A DNA stretch of 64,000 nucleotides, from NCBI RefSeq assembly GCF_030064895.1, contig NZ_JASJEB010000006.1:1-64000 (forward strand), read 5' to 3'. The position numbers and the translations under genes are program-made. The notes below the pieces were generated by a model. That model was not told the DNA's origin, ran no database searches, and saw nothing but the letters and a program-made list of their open reading frames with translations. Source of the DNA: Crocosphaera sp. Its GTDB lineage: Bacteria > Cyanobacteriota > Cyanobacteriia > Cyanobacteriales > Microcystaceae. Of the stretch, positions 53,759-60,478 are shown one piece after another (positions within the stretch are counted from its first letter, which is position 1; the number at the start of each line of letters is the position of its first letter).

Positions 53759-53926
53759 ATGTACTGTAGAACCGATATTATTGCCGAAGGAGTAGAAACT
53801 CAATTACAATTAGAACAATTAGAAAGCTTGGGTTGTGAACAAGGACAAGGTTACTTTTTTGCCAAACCCCTACCCTCTTCAGAAGTAGAAAAATTGCTTA
53901 AAAACCCGCCAACTTGGAACTATTGA
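53759..53926 (+). pseudogene. EAL-domain 3' fragment
   Basis: A 55-residue frame reads MYCRTDIIAEGVETQLQLEQ then LESLGCEQGQGYFFAKPLPSSEV. IAEGVET..QL..L..LGC.QGQGY.F.KPLP is the C-terminal end of EAL cyclic-di-GMP phosphodiesterase domains. All upstream EAL motifs (EAL, DDFG) are absent, so it is the 3' remnant of a deleted gene. It happens to open with ATG but should have no enzymatic activity. Confidence 0.8.
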
Positions 53927-54037: not shown

Positions 54038-55489
54038 ATGCTATTCAATTCTATTGATTTTGCTATTTTCTTGCCTATAGTATTCATTTTATATTGGTTG
54101 TTAAAAGATAAGAGTTTAAGACTTCAAAATCTTTTAATTGTAGGAGCTAGTTACTTCTTTTATGGTCAGTGGGATTATCATTTTCTCGGATTGATTATTT
54201 TTAGTACCTTGACAGATTACTTGATTGGTTTAGGACTGGGAAAACCTCAATTAAAACCTATAAAGAGAAAAGCTTTACTATTGAGCAGTATTATAGTTAA
54301 TTTAGGAATCTTAGGAATCTTCAAATATTATAACTTTTTCTTAGAAAATATTAGCGCAATTTTTTATTTTTTCGGACAAGAAATTCAACTAAGCTCTCTG
54401 AGTATTATTCTGCCTGTGGGCATAAGTTTTTATACATTTCAGACCTTAAGTTATTCCATAGATGTTTATAAAAGAAAGATACAACCAACCAAAAACTTGA
54501 TAGCTTTTGCAGCATTTGTTAGTTTTTTTCCACAATTAGTTGCCGGACCAATTGAAAGAGCTTCCCATCTGTTACCCCAATTTAATCGACAAAGAAAGTT
54601 CAATTATTATCAAGGAGTAGATGGTTTAAGACAAATACTTTGGGGTTTATTCAAAAAGATGGTAATTGCCGATAATTGTGCTATTTACGCTAACGAAATT
54701 TTTAATAATTCCTCAAATTATTCAGGGAGTACCTTACTGTTAGGTGCTTTCTTTTTTACCTTTCAAATTTATGGTGACTTTTCAGGCTATTCTGATATAG
54801 CCATTGGTGTGGCCAAATTATTTGGATTTGATTTGATGCAAAATTTCGCCTTTCCCTATTTTTCAAGGGATATAGCCGAATTTTGGAGACGGTGGCATAT
54901 TTCCTTATCTACTTGGTTTCGAGACTATCTTTATATCCCTTTAGGGGGTAGTCGTGGAGGAACTTGGATGAAAGTAAGGAATACATTTTTGATATTTTTA
55001 GTTAGTGGTTTTTGGCACGGTGCAAACTGGACGTTTATTATTTGGGGAGGGATTAATGCTGTCTATTTTTTACCCTTATTATTATTGAAAAGAAATCGTC
55101 AAAATCTTCAAGTTGTTGCTCAAGGAAGATACTTACCATCAGCAAAAGAAGCTCTCTCTATTGCAGTAACTTTTAGTTTGACTATGTTGGCTTGGATATT
55201 TTTTCGTGCTGAAAATTTAAACCATGCTTTGAGTTATATTAAGGGTATTTTTGATACATCTCTGTTTAGTATTCCCGATTTTCCCAACAGAAGAAATGCA
55301 GCTTTATTTTTAATATTAATTGTTTACTTTTTGTTGATTGAATGGTTGGGAAGAGAAAATAAATACGCAATAGAAAAATTATTTGTAAGAAGGAATCGTA
55401 TTTTAAGATGGATTTATTATTATTCCATTATTTATATGATAGTATTTTTCGCTGGACAAGAACAGGAATTTATTTATTTTCAATTTTGA
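54038..55489 (+). CDS. MBOAT O-acyltransferase (AlgI-like)
   Basis: A 483-residue membrane-bound O-acyltransferase. Signature regions: FWRRWHISLSTWFRDYLYIPLGGSRGG and the catalytic histidine in VSGFWHGANWTFIIWGG; preceded by the N-terminal ASYFFYGQWD. About ten hydrophobic helices. AlgI-type enzymes pass acetyl (acyl) groups across the membrane for modifying extracellular polysaccharide, with an SGNH-like partner. The next gene (8 bases later) has that kind of fold. The last 81 bases of this gene are repeated at 56551, upstream of the second partner copy. Confidence 0.93.
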   Translation: MLFNSIDFAIFLPIVFILYWLLKDKSLRLQNLLIVGASYFFYGQWDYHFLGLIIFSTLTDYLIGLGLGKPQLKPIKRKALLLSSIIVNLGILGIFKYYNFFLENISAIFYFFGQEIQLSSLSIILPVGISFYTFQTLSYSIDVYKRKIQPTKNLIAFAAFVSFFPQLVAGPIERASHLLPQFNRQRKFNYYQGVDGLRQILWGLFKKMVIADNCAIYANEIFNNSSNYSGSTLLLGAFFFTFQIYGDFSGYSDIAIGVAKLFGFDLMQNFAFPYFSRDIAEFWRRWHISLSTWFRDYLYIPLGGSRGGTWMKVRNTFLIFLVSGFWHGANWTFIIWGGINAVYFLPLLLLKRNRQNLQVVAQGRYLPSAKEALSIAVTFSLTMLAWIFFRAENLNHALSYIKGIFDTSLFSIPDFPNRRNAALFLILIVYFLLIEWLGRENKYAIEKLFVRRNRILRWIYYYSIIYMIVFFAGQEQEFIYFQF

Positions 55490-55497
55490 GGTGAATT

Positions 55498-56439
55498 ATG
55501 CTTAAATATTTTTTATTAAAAACTTCAACTTTTTTATCTATTCCCTTAGCTTTAATACTCTTGGTTGGCATAACATTTCCTCCGACACCTAGATCATCAA
55601 CATCTTTACTATTTGCTAAAATCGATAAAGATAAGCTCCTAAAAGAATCTCCGTCTCCTCGCTTAATTATGATTGGTGGTTCTAATTTAAGTTTTGGCAT
55701 TAATAGTCAAAGAATTAAAGATACTCTAGAATTAAATCCAATCAATACAGGAATTCATGTTGCGATTGGTTTAAAATATATGATGGATGATGTATTAGAG
55801 CATATTAAACCAGGAGATATTGTGGTTATTGCCCCAGAATATCAACAATTTTATGGAGATGGAGCATACGGACGCAACGAACTTCTAAGAATTGTTATTG
55901 ATATTGATCGAGAGAGTTTAAATGATTTGAATACAAAACAATGGCTAAAAATATTGCCATATTTTCCGAGATTTTCTCTTTCTAAACTTAAACCGAGTGA
56001 ATATTTTTTTCAGCAAAGTAAAAAAATTGGAGTCTATGAAAGACGGGCTTTTAATCAATACGGAGATTTAGATATACATTGGAATAAACCTCGTAAAAAA
56101 GTTGAACCTACAGGTAAATTACCCAATGATTTTAATCATCAGCTCATTCGAGAAATGGTAGATTTTAGGGATAAAGTTACTAAAAAAGGAGGTAAAGTCT
56201 ATGTTACTTTTCCAGGTTATCAAGAAGATTCATTTCAAAATGCTCAAGAGGGAATTGCTGAAATTGAAAAGAAGTTATTTGAAAAAGATTTTATATTATT
56301 AGGTTCTCCAGAAAGATATAAAATACCAAACGAGATGATCTATGACACCCCTTATCACCTCAGTAAAGAAGGAGTGGACTTAAGAACTCAAAGATTAATC
56401 GAAGATTTAAGCCAAGCTATCAACAAAAATGAACCATGA
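55498..56439 (+). CDS. SGNH-like polysaccharide-acylation partner, copy 1
   Basis: A 313-residue protein with an N-terminal membrane/signal helix (FLSIPLALILLVGITF). The motif IMIGGSNLSFGINSQ looks like the nucleophile block of SGNH/GDSL hydrolases (GxSN with Ser following Gly), and IYDTPYHLSKEGVDLRTQRL near the end gives the D..H block. By position after an AlgI-like MBOAT it is likely the periplasmic acyl transfer partner (AlgJ/AlgX/PatB-like). Family assigned from motifs and context. RBS GAGGTGAATTATG is strong and the gene is 8 bases after the MBOAT stop. Confidence 0.72.
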   Translation: MLKYFLLKTSTFLSIPLALILLVGITFPPTPRSSTSLLFAKIDKDKLLKESPSPRLIMIGGSNLSFGINSQRIKDTLELNPINTGIHVAIGLKYMMDDVLEHIKPGDIVVIAPEYQQFYGDGAYGRNELLRIVIDIDRESLNDLNTKQWLKILPYFPRFSLSKLKPSEYFFQQSKKIGVYERRAFNQYGDLDIHWNKPRKKVEPTGKLPNDFNHQLIREMVDFRDKVTKKGGKVYVTFPGYQEDSFQNAQEGIAEIEKKLFEKDFILLGSPERYKIPNEMIYDTPYHLSKEGVDLRTQRLIEDLSQAINKNEP

Positions 56440-56448
56440 TTATTATAG

Positions 56449-56550
56449 ATATCCGAATTATGGGTGTATCATCAAGATAAATTAACCATCTATATTTGGC
56501 AAGAAAAAGAGTATCAAAAATACTCTATTAGTCTTAATTTTGGCGATTCA
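56449..56550 (+). pseudogene. Uma2 fragment between duplicated copies
   Basis: The spacer of the duplication reads ISELWVYHQDKLTIYIWQEK and then EYQKYSISLNFGDS without start codon. It matches the C-terminal strand region of Uma2 proteins (PEIWIYDESKLEIY in the complete gene at 9649). It ends exactly at the copy 2 junction (56551). No N-terminal part of Uma2 is present. Confidence 0.65.
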
Positions 56551-56639
56551 TGGATTTACTATTATTAAATTATTTATATGATTGTATGTTTTGCTGGACA
56601 AGAACAGGAATTTATTTATTTTCAATTTTGAGGTGAATT

Positions 56640-57581
56640 ATGCTTAAATATTTTTTATTAAAAACTTCAACTTTTTTGTCTATTCCCTTAGCTTTAATGC
56701 TTTTCATTGGGGCAACATTTCCCCCAACACCACGAGCATCAACATCTTTATTATTTGCTAAAATCGATAAAGATAAGCTCCTAAAAGAATCTCCGTCTCC
56801 TCGCTTAATTATGATCGGTGGTTCTAATTTAAGTTTTGGCATCAATAGTCAGATGATAAAAGATGCTTTAGACTTAAATCCAATTAATACGGGAATTCAT
56901 GCTGATATTGGTTTAAAATATATGATGGATGATGTATTAGAGCATATTAAACCAGGAGATATTTTGGTAATGGCTCCAGAATATCAACACTTTTATGGAA
57001 CTTATGCTTATGGACGTCACTCACTTCTAATAACTGTTGTAGATGTTGATCGAGATAGTTTAAATAATTTGAGTGCAAAGCAATGGTTAGACATACTACC
57101 ATTTTTTCCTAAATTTTCTTTCTCTAAACTTAAACCGAGTGAATATTTTTTTCAGCAAAGTAAAAAAATTGGAGTTTATGAAAGAAGATCATTTAATCAA
57201 TATGGAGATGTAGATATACATTGGAGTCACCCTGGTAAAAAAGTTAGACCTAACGATAAATTTAATGACAATATTAATGAAAATTTAATTCAAGAAATGG
57301 TTGAATTTAGAGAAAAAGTAAGCCAAAAAGGAGCAATACTTTATCTTACATTTCCAGGTTATCAAAAAGCTTCATTTGACAAGAATAAAGAAGAAATTTA
57401 TAAAATTGAAAAAAAATTAAGTCAAAATAATTTTCTTTTGTTGGGTTATCCAGAAAGATATAAAATACCAAATAATATGATGTATAACACTCCTTATCAC
57501 CTTAATAAAGAAGGAGTGGACTTAAGAACGCAAAGATTAATCGAAGATTTAAGCCAAGCTATCAATAAAAATGAACCATGA
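56640..57581 (+). CDS. SGNH-like polysaccharide-acylation partner, copy 2
   Basis: A 313-residue paralogue of the gene at 55498 with the same length and the same motifs: MIGGSNLSFGINSQ, EYQHFYG, and YNTPYHLNKEGVDLRTQRL. The catalytic-type Asp of the D..H block in copy 1 (YDTPYH) is Asn here (YNTPYH), as noted from direct comparison. So copy 2 may be catalytically altered or use another Asp. The coding parts have drifted most in the middle (GTYAYGRHSLLITVVDVDR versus GDGAYGRNELLRIVIDIDR). It keeps the GAGGTGAATT leader and may still be co-transcribed. Confidence 0.7.
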   Translation: MLKYFLLKTSTFLSIPLALMLFIGATFPPTPRASTSLLFAKIDKDKLLKESPSPRLIMIGGSNLSFGINSQMIKDALDLNPINTGIHADIGLKYMMDDVLEHIKPGDILVMAPEYQHFYGTYAYGRHSLLITVVDVDRDSLNNLSAKQWLDILPFFPKFSFSKLKPSEYFFQQSKKIGVYERRSFNQYGDVDIHWSHPGKKVRPNDKFNDNINENLIQEMVEFREKVSQKGAILYLTFPGYQKASFDKNKEEIYKIEKKLSQNNFLLLGYPERYKIPNNMMYNTPYHLNKEGVDLRTQRLIEDLSQAINKNEP

Positions 57582-57634
57582 TTATTATCTTCTAATTCAT
57601 TCTTGCCATCTTCAATTGTAAAATCGTTTAAACC

Positions 57635-57832
57635 TCAAAAATCTCTCATAGATTGATTATAACAGTTGTTTAAAGAACCTGTCAGTGTAGTAGAACCAAC
57701 CTTCCCATCTGAATAAACAATAAAAACTTTCTCGCCAATGAGCCTTGTAATTAAATAACATCTCCAATTTACGGATAAAGAATAGCTAAAATCTAATAGC
57801 TGAATAATTTTCTGCTTTAATATTGTCTTCAT
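57635..57832 (-). pseudogene. sulfotransferase-like N-terminal fragment
   Basis: A 65-residue minus-strand frame with VFIVYSDGKVGSTTLTGSLNN. The S-x-GKVGST-(S/T)-(L/V) phosphate loop is the PAPS-binding block of carbohydrate/putative capsular sulfotransferases. A full enzyme has over 200 residues; this stops soon after the motif. It looks like a truncated gene at the end of the polysaccharide locus. A stand-alone small protein cannot be excluded. Confidence 0.55.
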
Positions 57833-58026
57833 TTTGTTAATGATGATTAATGATTGAATATAAAAGGCATAGTGGACAAGAGAAGATTAGCAACAAAGCT
57901 CAAAAATTGTTCGTCTTCGTAACCGACAAGAAACAATAACCAGACAATTCTAACATTGCTATAGAAAAAATTGAGTACACTAAAACAAGAAAATACACTA
58001 ACAGCGATCAGCGAGATAGCTAAACT

Positions 58027-58530
58027 ATGTTTTCCATGCCCATTATCTTCAAAAAAAACACCCTAGTAACCCTCAGTTGTACCCTAACGGCGATGGCGGC
58101 CATGATCGCCCTGAAAACCATTCCCAGAAACGTACAAGCCCAAACCCTAGCCCCGAATAGTCCCCTTACCGTTCGCTCCGATATCCAAGAAGCCAACTCA
58201 GAAACCGGCGTAGTCACCGCCAGAGGTAACGTACAATTTTTCTACCCTGCCCGACAAATTCAAGGTACATCCGCACAAGCACAGTATTTCAGCCGAGAAC
58301 GGCGTTTAGTTCTCACCGGAGACGTTTATGTACTGCAAGAAGGCAACAGTATGAGGGCCGAAACCATGACCTATCTCATCGACGAAGGACGCTTTATTGC
58401 TACCCCAGAATCAGCCCAACAAGTAGAATCAATTTACCTCGTCACAGAAAACCAAAACAACCCCCCTCAACCCACCCCCGTGTCACCGGCACCACCCTTA
58501 GACACCACCTTGCCCACCCCCGACTTTTAA
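58027..58530 (+). CDS. lptA: LptA/OstA-like periplasmic LPS transport protein
   Basis: A 167-residue protein with a long signal peptide (LSCTLTAMAAMIALKTIPRNVQAQ) and a short beta-jellyroll LptA/OstA domain: VRSDIQEANSETGVVTARGNVQFFYPARQI, then RLVLTGDVYVLQEGNSMRAETM. LptA forms the periplasmic bridge moving LPS to the outer membrane. The C-terminus after residue 135 is proline-rich. The operon order lptA-lptB-lptF/G with 10- and 36-base gaps supports the assignment. Confidence 0.88.
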   Translation: MFSMPIIFKKNTLVTLSCTLTAMAAMIALKTIPRNVQAQTLAPNSPLTVRSDIQEANSETGVVTARGNVQFFYPARQIQGTSAQAQYFSRERRLVLTGDVYVLQEGNSMRAETMTYLIDEGRFIATPESAQQVESIYLVTENQNNPPQPTPVSPAPPLDTTLPTPDF

Positions 58531-58540
58531 ATGCCGAGCA

Positions 58541-59257
58541 ATGACACTAATTTTAGAAAATATCCATAAAAGCTACGGAAAAAGAGACATTGTTAACCGC
58601 GTCAATATTAATGTTGCCCCTGGAGAAATTGTTGGGTTGCTCGGACCCAATGGTGCAGGGAAAACAACCACATTTTATATAGCCACCGGTCTTATTAAAC
58701 CCAATAAAGGCAAAGTTTGGTTAAATCAACAAGAAGTGACGCGCTTACCCTTAAATAAGCGCGCTCGTCTCGGTATTGGCTATATGACCCAGCAACCCAG
58801 TATTTTTCGTCATCTCAGCGTGGCCGAAAATATTCAAGTTGCCCTGGAACAAACCAACGTTCCCTTTCGCCAAAGACCCCAACGCCTTCATAGCTTACTC
58901 AAAGAATTTCGTCTGGAAAAAATTGCCAACACCAAAGGCTCTCAAGTTTCCGGGGGAGAAAGACGGAGAACAGAGTTAGCCCGTTCCTTAGCAGTAGGTA
59001 AACAGGGGCCAGACTTTTTATTATTAGATGAACCCTTTGCCGGGGTTGATCCCATCGCTGTCTCAGAAATTCAAACCATGATCGCCCAATTACGCGATCG
59101 CCAAATGGGTATTTTGATCACAGATCACAATGTTCAAGCCACCCTAGCCATTACTAACCGCGCTTATATTATGAGGGATGGTCAAATTTTAGCCGCCGGC
59201 AGTGCCGAAGAAATTTATAACAATCCTTTGGTACGACAATATTATTTAGGAGATTAG
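58541..59257 (+). CDS. lptB: LPS transport ATPase LptB
   Basis: A 238-residue ABC ATPase. Walker A LLGPNGAGKTTTF, signature QVSGGERRRTELARSLA, Walker B FLLLDEPFAGVDP and ITDHNVQATLAI switch histidine: all as in LptB. It powers extraction of LPS from the inner membrane together with LptF/LptG. It follows lptA after 10 bases and precedes the permease. Confidence 0.95.
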   Translation: MTLILENIHKSYGKRDIVNRVNINVAPGEIVGLLGPNGAGKTTTFYIATGLIKPNKGKVWLNQQEVTRLPLNKRARLGIGYMTQQPSIFRHLSVAENIQVALEQTNVPFRQRPQRLHSLLKEFRLEKIANTKGSQVSGGERRRTELARSLAVGKQGPDFLLLDEPFAGVDPIAVSEIQTMIAQLRDRQMGILITDHNVQATLAITNRAYIMRDGQILAAGSAEEIYNNPLVRQYYLGD

Positions 59258-59293
59258 AGAAAATCGGTCAACTCTAAAAGCACACACAAAATT

Positions 59294-60478
59294 ATGGATA
59301 TTGGTCAAGCAAACCCCCTTAAAATCAAATTAAAACCCAGCATCCCTGGTTTAGCAATCATGGATCGTTACCTATTTATTGAACTGCTGTTGCCTTTTCT
59401 GTTTGGCATGGGTATCTTCACCTCTTTAGGTTTATCCATTGGTACATTATTCGACCTGGTGCGTCGCGTCACCGAGTCAGGGTTAATGTTATCAGTCGCT
59501 TTAAAGGTTTTACTGCTAAAAATGCCAGGCTTTGTTAGTTTGGCCTTTCCTATGGCCATGTTATTAGCAGCTTTGATGGCTTATAGTCGTTTATCCAGTG
59601 ACAGCGAAATTATCGCCTTACGCAGTTTGGGGGTAAGCGTTTATCGTTTAATCATCCCCGTGATTCTTTTTGGTTTCGTGGTTACAGGATGCGCTTTTGT
59701 TGTCAACGATTGGATCGCACCGGCGGCCACCCATGAAGCTGCTGTTACCTTAGAACGGGCAGTCAACCAAGAACGACCGGATTTTAAAGAGCGCAATATT
59801 GTTTATCCCGAATATAAAACCATTCAAGAGGAAGACGGACAAGAAGCCACTGTTTTGAGCCGTTTATTCTACGCCGAAGAATACAACGGCGAGCAAATGC
59901 AAGGGTTGACCATTTTAGACCGCACCCAAGAAGGAGTTAACCAAATTGTTACCTCAGAGTCCGCTACCTGGAATATTTCCAGCAATACTTGGGACTTTTT
60001 CAATGGGACTATTTACTTGATTGCCCCAGATGGTTCCTATCGCAATATTGTGCGCTTTCAACATCAACAATTAGCTTTGCCCCGGGCCCCGTTAGATTTA
60101 GCCAACCGTCGTCAAAATTTCACAGAAATGACCATCGCCGAAACCAAAGAATATCTCAAAGCCATGCAATTAAGTGGCAACGAGAAACGGGTAAGAAAGG
60201 TTAAGGTTCGTCTCCAAGAAAAGTACGCTCTACCTTTCGTATGTTTAATCTTTGGTTTAGTGGGGGCTGCCATTGGTGTTAGACCCCAAAATACCAATAA
60301 GGCCACCAGTTTTGGGGTCTGTGTCGGTTTAATTTTCGGTTACTATCTACTGGCCTTTATGAGTACGTCCCTCGGTATTTGGGGCATTTTAACCCCCTTT
60401 CTGGGGGCTTGGTTACCCAATATTCTTGGATTGGTTGCCGGTAGCTTATTATTAGTTCAATCAGCAAGTTTACGATAG
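59294..60478 (+). CDS. LptF/LptG-family LPS permease
   Basis: A 394-residue YjgP/YjgQ permease. N-terminal helices (LFIELLLPFLFGMGIFTSLGL, VALKVLLLKMPGFVSLAFPMAMLLAALMAYSRL) and C-terminal helices (FVCLIFGLVGAAIGVR..., LLAFMSTSLGIWGILTPFL) flank a periplasmic beta-jellyroll-like domain (about 150-300). It is the transmembrane unit with LptB. Only one such gene is present here where proteobacteria have two (LptF and LptG), suggesting a homodimer or a second gene elsewhere. Confidence 0.92.
   Translation: MDIGQANPLKIKLKPSIPGLAIMDRYLFIELLLPFLFGMGIFTSLGLSIGTLFDLVRRVTESGLMLSVALKVLLLKMPGFVSLAFPMAMLLAALMAYSRLSSDSEIIALRSLGVSVYRLIIPVILFGFVVTGCAFVVNDWIAPAATHEAAVTLERAVNQERPDFKERNIVYPEYKTIQEEDGQEATVLSRLFYAEEYNGEQMQGLTILDRTQEGVNQIVTSESATWNISSNTWDFFNGTIYLIAPDGSYRNIVRFQHQQLALPRAPLDLANRRQNFTEMTIAETKEYLKAMQLSGNEKRVRKVKVRLQEKYALPFVCLIFGLVGAAIGVRPQNTNKATSFGVCVGLIFGYYLLAFMSTSLGIWGILTPFLGAWLPNILGLVAGSLLLVQSASLR

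Follow-up and report, generated by a model that had tools for sequence, protein, structure and literature searches.

The described MBOAT-SGNH pairs PatA/PatB, DltB/DltX/DltD and AlgI/AlgJ/AlgX consist of an MBOAT protein directly followed by an SGNH-fold partner. The same order is found at a locus of Crocosphaera sp. (contig NZ_JASJEB010000006.1, positions 1 to 64,000; this whole stretch of 64,000 nucleotides is referred to as the window). Here, the MBOAT ends in FIYFQF, a motif like that of PatA, and both DltD and PatB are among the fold matches of the partner. The locus differs from the described pairs in that two tandem partners, abbreviated c1 (first) and c2 (second), follow one MBOAT, and in that no Pfam or NCBIfam family scores above its cut-off with the partner protein.

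The closest precedent is the orphan immunity arrays of the type VI secretion system of Vibrio cholerae. In these arrays, a newly arrived module lies next to the old one, whose partner gene persists on the downstream side, sometimes together with a 3′ remnant of the gene that was displaced; their proposed origin is homology-facilitated illegitimate recombination (PMC5361080). The present locus differs from them in having no toxin-immunity logic. It involves an envelope acyltransferase partner, and its single extra partner apparently became blended with the first through later conversion. Tandem paralogues that undergo gene conversion (PMC3924818) likewise share near-identical tracts and are otherwise divergent, whereas here the divergent parts may predate the pairing if the copies are alleles of two lineages. 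Searches of the open-access literature yielded no report of a doubled SGNH partner or of the present locus.

On balance it seems probable, if far from certain, that the two partner genes represent different alleles of a single locus prone to exchange, which were joined head-to-tail and later converted. The two versions of the locus appear fused because a Uma2 fragment follows c1 and an NKWYS relic follows c2, and these two genes mark separate flank types among eight other Crocosphaera genomes (G001-G008).

Repeat structure and flanking relics

The stretch 55409-56446 aligns with 56551-57588 over 1038 bp at an offset of 1142 bp, with no gaps and 887 of 1038 positions identical (85.5%). These are exactly the limits given in the preliminary description of the window. 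Beyond them, in-register identity drops to 20-42% per 50 bp, and the similarity is too long for chance. The c1 and c2 open reading frames are both intact at 313 codons, with 797 of 942 nucleotides and 77% of amino acids identical. The features of the locus are as follows.

53759-53926, plus strand: C-terminal relic of a PAS-GGDEF-EAL gene (PF00563, E 8e-9), at the left edge of the putative exchangeable segment
54038-55489, plus strand: MBOAT acyltransferase gene (PF03062, E 9e-30, 104.5 bits against a cut-off of 27), with the C-terminal FIYFQF at 55469-55486
55498-56439, plus strand: c1, open reading frame for a protein of predicted SGNH fold with Asp283; orthologues 74-83% identical
56449-56547, plus strand: internal Uma2 fragment, codons 148-180 of 213 (tblastn E 3e-11; DNA 82-93% identical to the locus-linked Uma2 of G002, G004 and G007)
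56551-56631, plus strand: relic of the MBOAT 3′ end with the c2 leader, from alignment and translation; in-frame stop at 56566-56568, FIYFQF still spelled
56640-57581, plus strand: c2, open reading frame with Asn283 and faster protein evolution (omega 0.50 vs 0.25; unique residues 16 vs 4)
57578-57841, minus strand: remnant of an NKWYS (PF10364) gene, decayed through internal deletions and frameshifts; protein match to G003, natural 3′ end
58027-58530, plus strand: LptA-type gene (named from gene context alone), at the right edge of the putative exchangeable segment; adjoins Uma2, NKWYS or the partner in relatives

The spacer between the copies (56447-56550, 104 bp) was previously described as the captured tail of a Uma2 gene. 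Its Uma2 origin is upheld, as it matches residues 148-180 of the 213-residue Uma2 protein of G002. It is, however, an internal piece, with the first 147 and the last approximately 33 codons absent, and it is a relic of a locus-resident Uma2 rather than captured foreign filler. The DNA identity of the spacer is 93% to the Uma2 of G007, 89% to that of G004 and 82% to that of G002. A filler derived from elsewhere in the genome was also considered and rejected, as the window genome holds no second DNA match and none of the further Uma2 proteins that it encodes exceeds 49% identity to the locus type.

The duplicated MBOAT tail ahead of c2 is present as described, but as a decayed relic interrupted by the in-frame TAA. 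The claim that c2 has a leader of its own is borne out by a ribosome-binding leader. Within the relic, a 17-codon frame opens at an ATG at 56578 and ends in the acyl-shuttle motif FIYFQF (56578-56631). This frame is probably only a scar that also holds the c2 leader. A DltX-like micropeptide encoded by it is very unlikely, because no full transmembrane stretch and no convincing ribosome site remain. Promoter-like sites, sought as a promoter for c2, were not above shuffles (22 vs 22.6), and the 3 terminator-like sites found are all located outside the interval between the copies. The NKWYS remnant after c2 is frameshifted and its natural 3′ end abuts c2; it is 63% identical to the G003 protein over residues 2-58 (E 1.7e-16), and a second piece corresponds to residues 195-245.

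The single-copy relatives that the preliminary description proposed to look for do exist. The MBOAT-partner pair occurs in five of the eight other genomes (G001-G005), with one partner copy each at 74-83% identity, directly behind the MBOAT. Only distant partner homologues, or none, occur in G006-G008. Searches of the five intervals with c1 (tblastn) returned one place each and no relic of a second partner. Two independent partners lacking a duplicated MBOAT tail, the arrangement named beforehand as contradicting a duplication, were not seen among these eight genomes.

The flank types were compared as what lies between the end of the EAL gene and LptA. The order MBOAT-partner-Uma2 is found in G002 and G004, while G003 has the pair followed by NKWYS on the minus strand and G005 has the pair only, with the partner directly before LptA. 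Uma2 precedes LptA without a partner in G007, and NKWYS precedes it in G008, where the contig ends. In G001, the pair and LptA are on separate contigs and the neighbours of the pair differ. The window alone bears relics of both types. The locus-type Uma2 (86-100% amino acid identity; 86-89% to that of G002) is confined to the locus in three of the nine genus genomes, the next best Uma2 being 55% identical, and the close NKWYS type (92% between G003 and G008) is likewise confined to it. Since neither was seen anywhere else in the nine genomes, the two relics appear to mark two versions of the locus.

The relic at the left edge comprises approximately 50 codons. In G006, the corresponding gene of 910 amino acids is found whole at this site, with neither Uma2, NKWYS nor the pair. 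Similar matches are present in G002 to G005 and in G007, and a PAS-GGDEF-EAL gene may thus have given way to the variable segment.

Mosaic divergence of the copies

The similarity between the copies is unevenly distributed. Five shared tracts, all on the plus strand, can be delimited.

55451-55535, in c2 at 56593-56677: 85 identical bp
55610-55673, in c2 at 56752-56815: 64 identical bp
55765-55821, in c2 at 56907-56963: 57 identical bp
55981-56033, in c2 at 57123-57175: 53 identical bp
56389-56446, in c2 at 57531-57588: 3′ tract, ending at the divergence point of the two flank types

The exact blocks of 85, 64, 57, 53 and 35 bp are spread over the leader with the start of the gene, three tracts in its interior and the 3′ end. 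Within the five tracts (255 nt), c1 and c2 show 6 differences, compared with 36-45 in the 14 other pairs. Over the remaining 675 nt, they show 139 differences compared with 92-150, which is inter-species divergence. These counts and the extended run test cover 15 pairs, with G001 left out. As the tracts had been selected by the agreement of c1 and c2, a run test on the whole alignment was added; the run-length statistic of c1-c2 was reached by 0 of 5000 shuffles and was the strongest of the 15 pairs. A codon-based run test from which the leader and 3′ end had been removed was weaker for c1-c2 (p 0.017, uncorrected, 21 pairs).

The overall divergence of the copies is 0.132 nonsynonymous (dN) and 0.371 synonymous (dS) substitutions per site. 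By region, dS is 0.088 in the tracts and 0.50 outside them, within the inter-species range of 0.48-0.84. The dS to G002-G005 is 0.56-0.79 for c1 and 0.48-0.73 for c2. A tandem duplication implies that the copies are closer to each other than to the orthologues along the whole unit; this is true in the tracts only.

The patchiness is best explained by interrupted gene conversion. The tract pattern is that of conversion bounded by heterology, with the 3′ block stopping where the Uma2-type and NKWYS-type flanks part. The “precise” right edge, earlier taken as a duplication endpoint, marks where the two flank types cease to be homologous.

Origin of the two partner genes

The recombination steps that we infer start from two alleles, MBOAT-partner-Uma2 and MBOAT-partner-NKWYS-LptA. 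A segment from a related Crocosphaera would have entered through homologous pairing at one end and an illegitimate join at the other, the latter linking the interior of Uma2 to the final codons of the second MBOAT. The product would have consisted of an entire MBOAT and partner 1, followed by a scrap of Uma2, a 3′ scrap of MBOAT and partner 2. Through later conversion between the adjacent partners, the leader, several stretches inside the gene and the 3′ end would have become alike. In a two-step variant, a local duplication would have been followed by allelic replacement of the right flank, which would also import the second allele. A two-allele origin with subsequent conversion has the best support, whether through homology-facilitated illegitimate recombination in one step or through duplication and flank replacement in two.

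The gene trees were inconsistent between regions. In the gene-middle tree, c1 and c2 are not sisters. With 5000 resamplings, a number that the program flagged as too few, the approximately unbiased (AU) test for their sisterhood gave 0.96 for codons 13-110 and a doubtful 0.066 for codons 201-288. When three Bacteroidota outgroups were included, c2 was placed near the root with G001 and c1 apart from it. Sisterhood on the non-tract residues, a set defined post hoc, was then weakly rejected (AU p 0.041). By themselves, the gene trees leave the origin of the copies undecided, and the argument rests on the flanks.

Several observations weigh against a joining of two alleles. In the whole-gene tree, c1 and c2 are sisters (ultrafast bootstrap 79), with an AU value of 0.90 on the full gene, and once the outgroups are added the complete set of residues does not reject this arrangement (AU 0.102). 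The deep position of c2 is weakly supported (node support about 49-76 in two full-length trees), with long-branch attraction as a possible cause. The non-tract tests lean towards a two-allele origin, since their regions were picked after the data had been seen. The dS between the copies (0.37) is below that to any orthologue (c1 0.56-1.28; c2 0.48-1.03). The run test is also low for G003-G004 (0.0018) and G003-G005 (0.0028), and this excess of runs means that recombination between genomes muddies the picture. The exact donor allele was not found in any genome. The Uma2/MBOAT junction looks illegitimate, and its inspection revealed no clear microhomology.

A local tandem duplication in the window lineage is a possible but rather unlikely alternative. 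One allele would have been copied from the MBOAT end into Uma2, followed by decay of Uma2 and fast divergence of c2 under relaxed constraint, and the patches of high identity would be the unchanged remainder or the result of later conversion. The whole-gene sisterhood, the low dS between the copies, the higher omega and 16 unique residues of c2, and a junction leading from Uma2 back to MBOAT, as expected of a tandem duplication, are all consistent with this. It would require, however, that Uma2 and NKWYS were once adjacent, which is the case on one chromosome in 0 of the 8 other genus genomes, or that the flank was replaced later. Relaxed constraint cannot produce the split between the tracts and the remainder, because synonymous divergence also differs by tract. 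The precise tandem duplication of the preliminary description is thus upheld as a repeat, but a simple in-place origin is doubtful, as the flanks differ and the non-tract divergence resembles that between orthologues of different species.

An older duplication in the ancestor of the genus would agree with the placement of c2 near the root in the outgroup trees; the five sampled relatives would then have lost one copy, and conversion would have kept the two similar in the window. Such a duplication is nevertheless highly improbable, as five independent or shared losses would be needed and each relative's interval matched c1 at a single place, with no second-partner relic. An assembly chimera, in which the alleles of two strains were mis-joined, is the least probable origin, even though the draft has 188 contigs, several relatives are metagenome-assembled genomes and two alleles are apparently present: the junction lacks the long shared word that mis-joins need, and the MBOAT stop, the cut Uma2 and the frameshifted NKWYS have decayed like old scars.

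Function and distribution

The FIYFQF of the MBOAT matches the PatA acyl-shuttle motif, the C-terminal hexapeptides of PatA being FIYSSF and FIYANF, in which the Tyr carries the acetyl group (PMC12148441). The motif closes the window MBOAT and those of the Bacteroidota relatives L048 and L060, and the same codons end the MBOAT in G001-G005. The structure model of c1, with a mean predicted local distance difference test (pLDDT) score of only 69.8, matches SGNH hydrolases, DltD and PatB, with VIA Z values of up to 14.4 (7bxd; root-mean-square deviation 2.8, 167 aligned). Further matches are 2o14 with Z 13.3 (3.3, 180) and DltD 3bma_B with Z 11.8 (4.7, 241). Ser62 and His287, the presumed catalytic residues, are invariant in all 24 aligned family members. 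By analogy with other MBOAT-SGNH proteins, the MBOAT would charge the Tyr of its FIYFQF with an acyl group, which the partner would accept via Ser62 and deliver to a surface polysaccharide. The single intact MBOAT could supply both partners.

The Asp-to-Asn difference that had been noted in the D..H block is located at residue 283. Asp is present in 23 of the 24 aligned members, c2 being the sole exception. The suggestion of subfunctionalisation is not sustained, because Asn is also found in two of the three single-copy Bacteroidota relatives (L046 and L060; L048 has Asp). Nor is Asn283 a sign of a dead or specialised enzyme: besides its presence in L046 and L060, the residue lies in a D-T-x-x-H motif, four residues rather than three ahead of His287, and some SGNH enzymes lack the block V Asp (PMC9487903). 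Retention of Asn in c2 as an ancestral state was rejected: the c2-unique residues match L046 in 5 of 16 cases and L060 in 5 of 16, which does not reach significance (Fisher p 0.13 and 0.11 vs the other six sequences). Of the earlier interpretation as a whole, the second partner and the single-copy relatives remain.

Over 120 codon bootstraps, omega was 0.50 (0.32-0.85) for c2 and 0.25 (0.15-0.39) for c1, and 16 residues of c2 but 4 of c1 are unique among seven sequences. It appears that c2 is under weaker constraint, yet its frame has stayed open while its neighbours decayed. A more tentative and rather doubtful proposal is that a module was displaced at this MBOAT-SGNH locus and that its partner stayed behind as an orphan. 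Two SGNH partners, one of the Asp type that is usual in Crocosphaera and one of an Asn type that Bacteroidota also have, would then depend on the same MBOAT. In that case, new acylation specificities would be able to evolve through orphan partners, much as toxin resistance does through orphan immunity genes. Should both partners be active, the locus offers a natural test of one MBOAT acyl shuttle feeding two SGNH transferases and of the contribution of the block V acid.

The locus is ordinary in kind but has a neat genomic history. A clean-looking tandem duplicate can be the scar of inter-species allele exchange and gene conversion, in which case the identity between the copies would give a misleading date.

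Outside Crocosphaera, a sample of 385 further cyanobacterial genomes gave no match to the cassette at E 1e-30; the five orthologue-bearing relatives evidently lie outside this sample, since the window genome was its sole match. The nearest cassette relatives beyond the genus belong to Bacteroidota (66% for the MBOAT in L060; 49-53% for the partner in L046), the only other phylum with near relatives in the searches made, which suggests a cross-phylum transfer of the cassette (54038-57581). The cassette occurs in 2 of 395 genomes of this phylum, one of them that of L046 itself, and also in a Mucilaginibacter metagenome-assembled genome.

By the LptB-YjgP stretch of the window (58541-60478), G007 is the nearest of the genomes compared, at 91%. 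The same stretch has two 88% copies in G002 on separate contigs (C257 and C167), perhaps through a strain mixture in that assembly. In G003, a second MBOAT of 64% identity is followed by an unrelated-looking protein of 348 amino acids (L053, 2077-4611).

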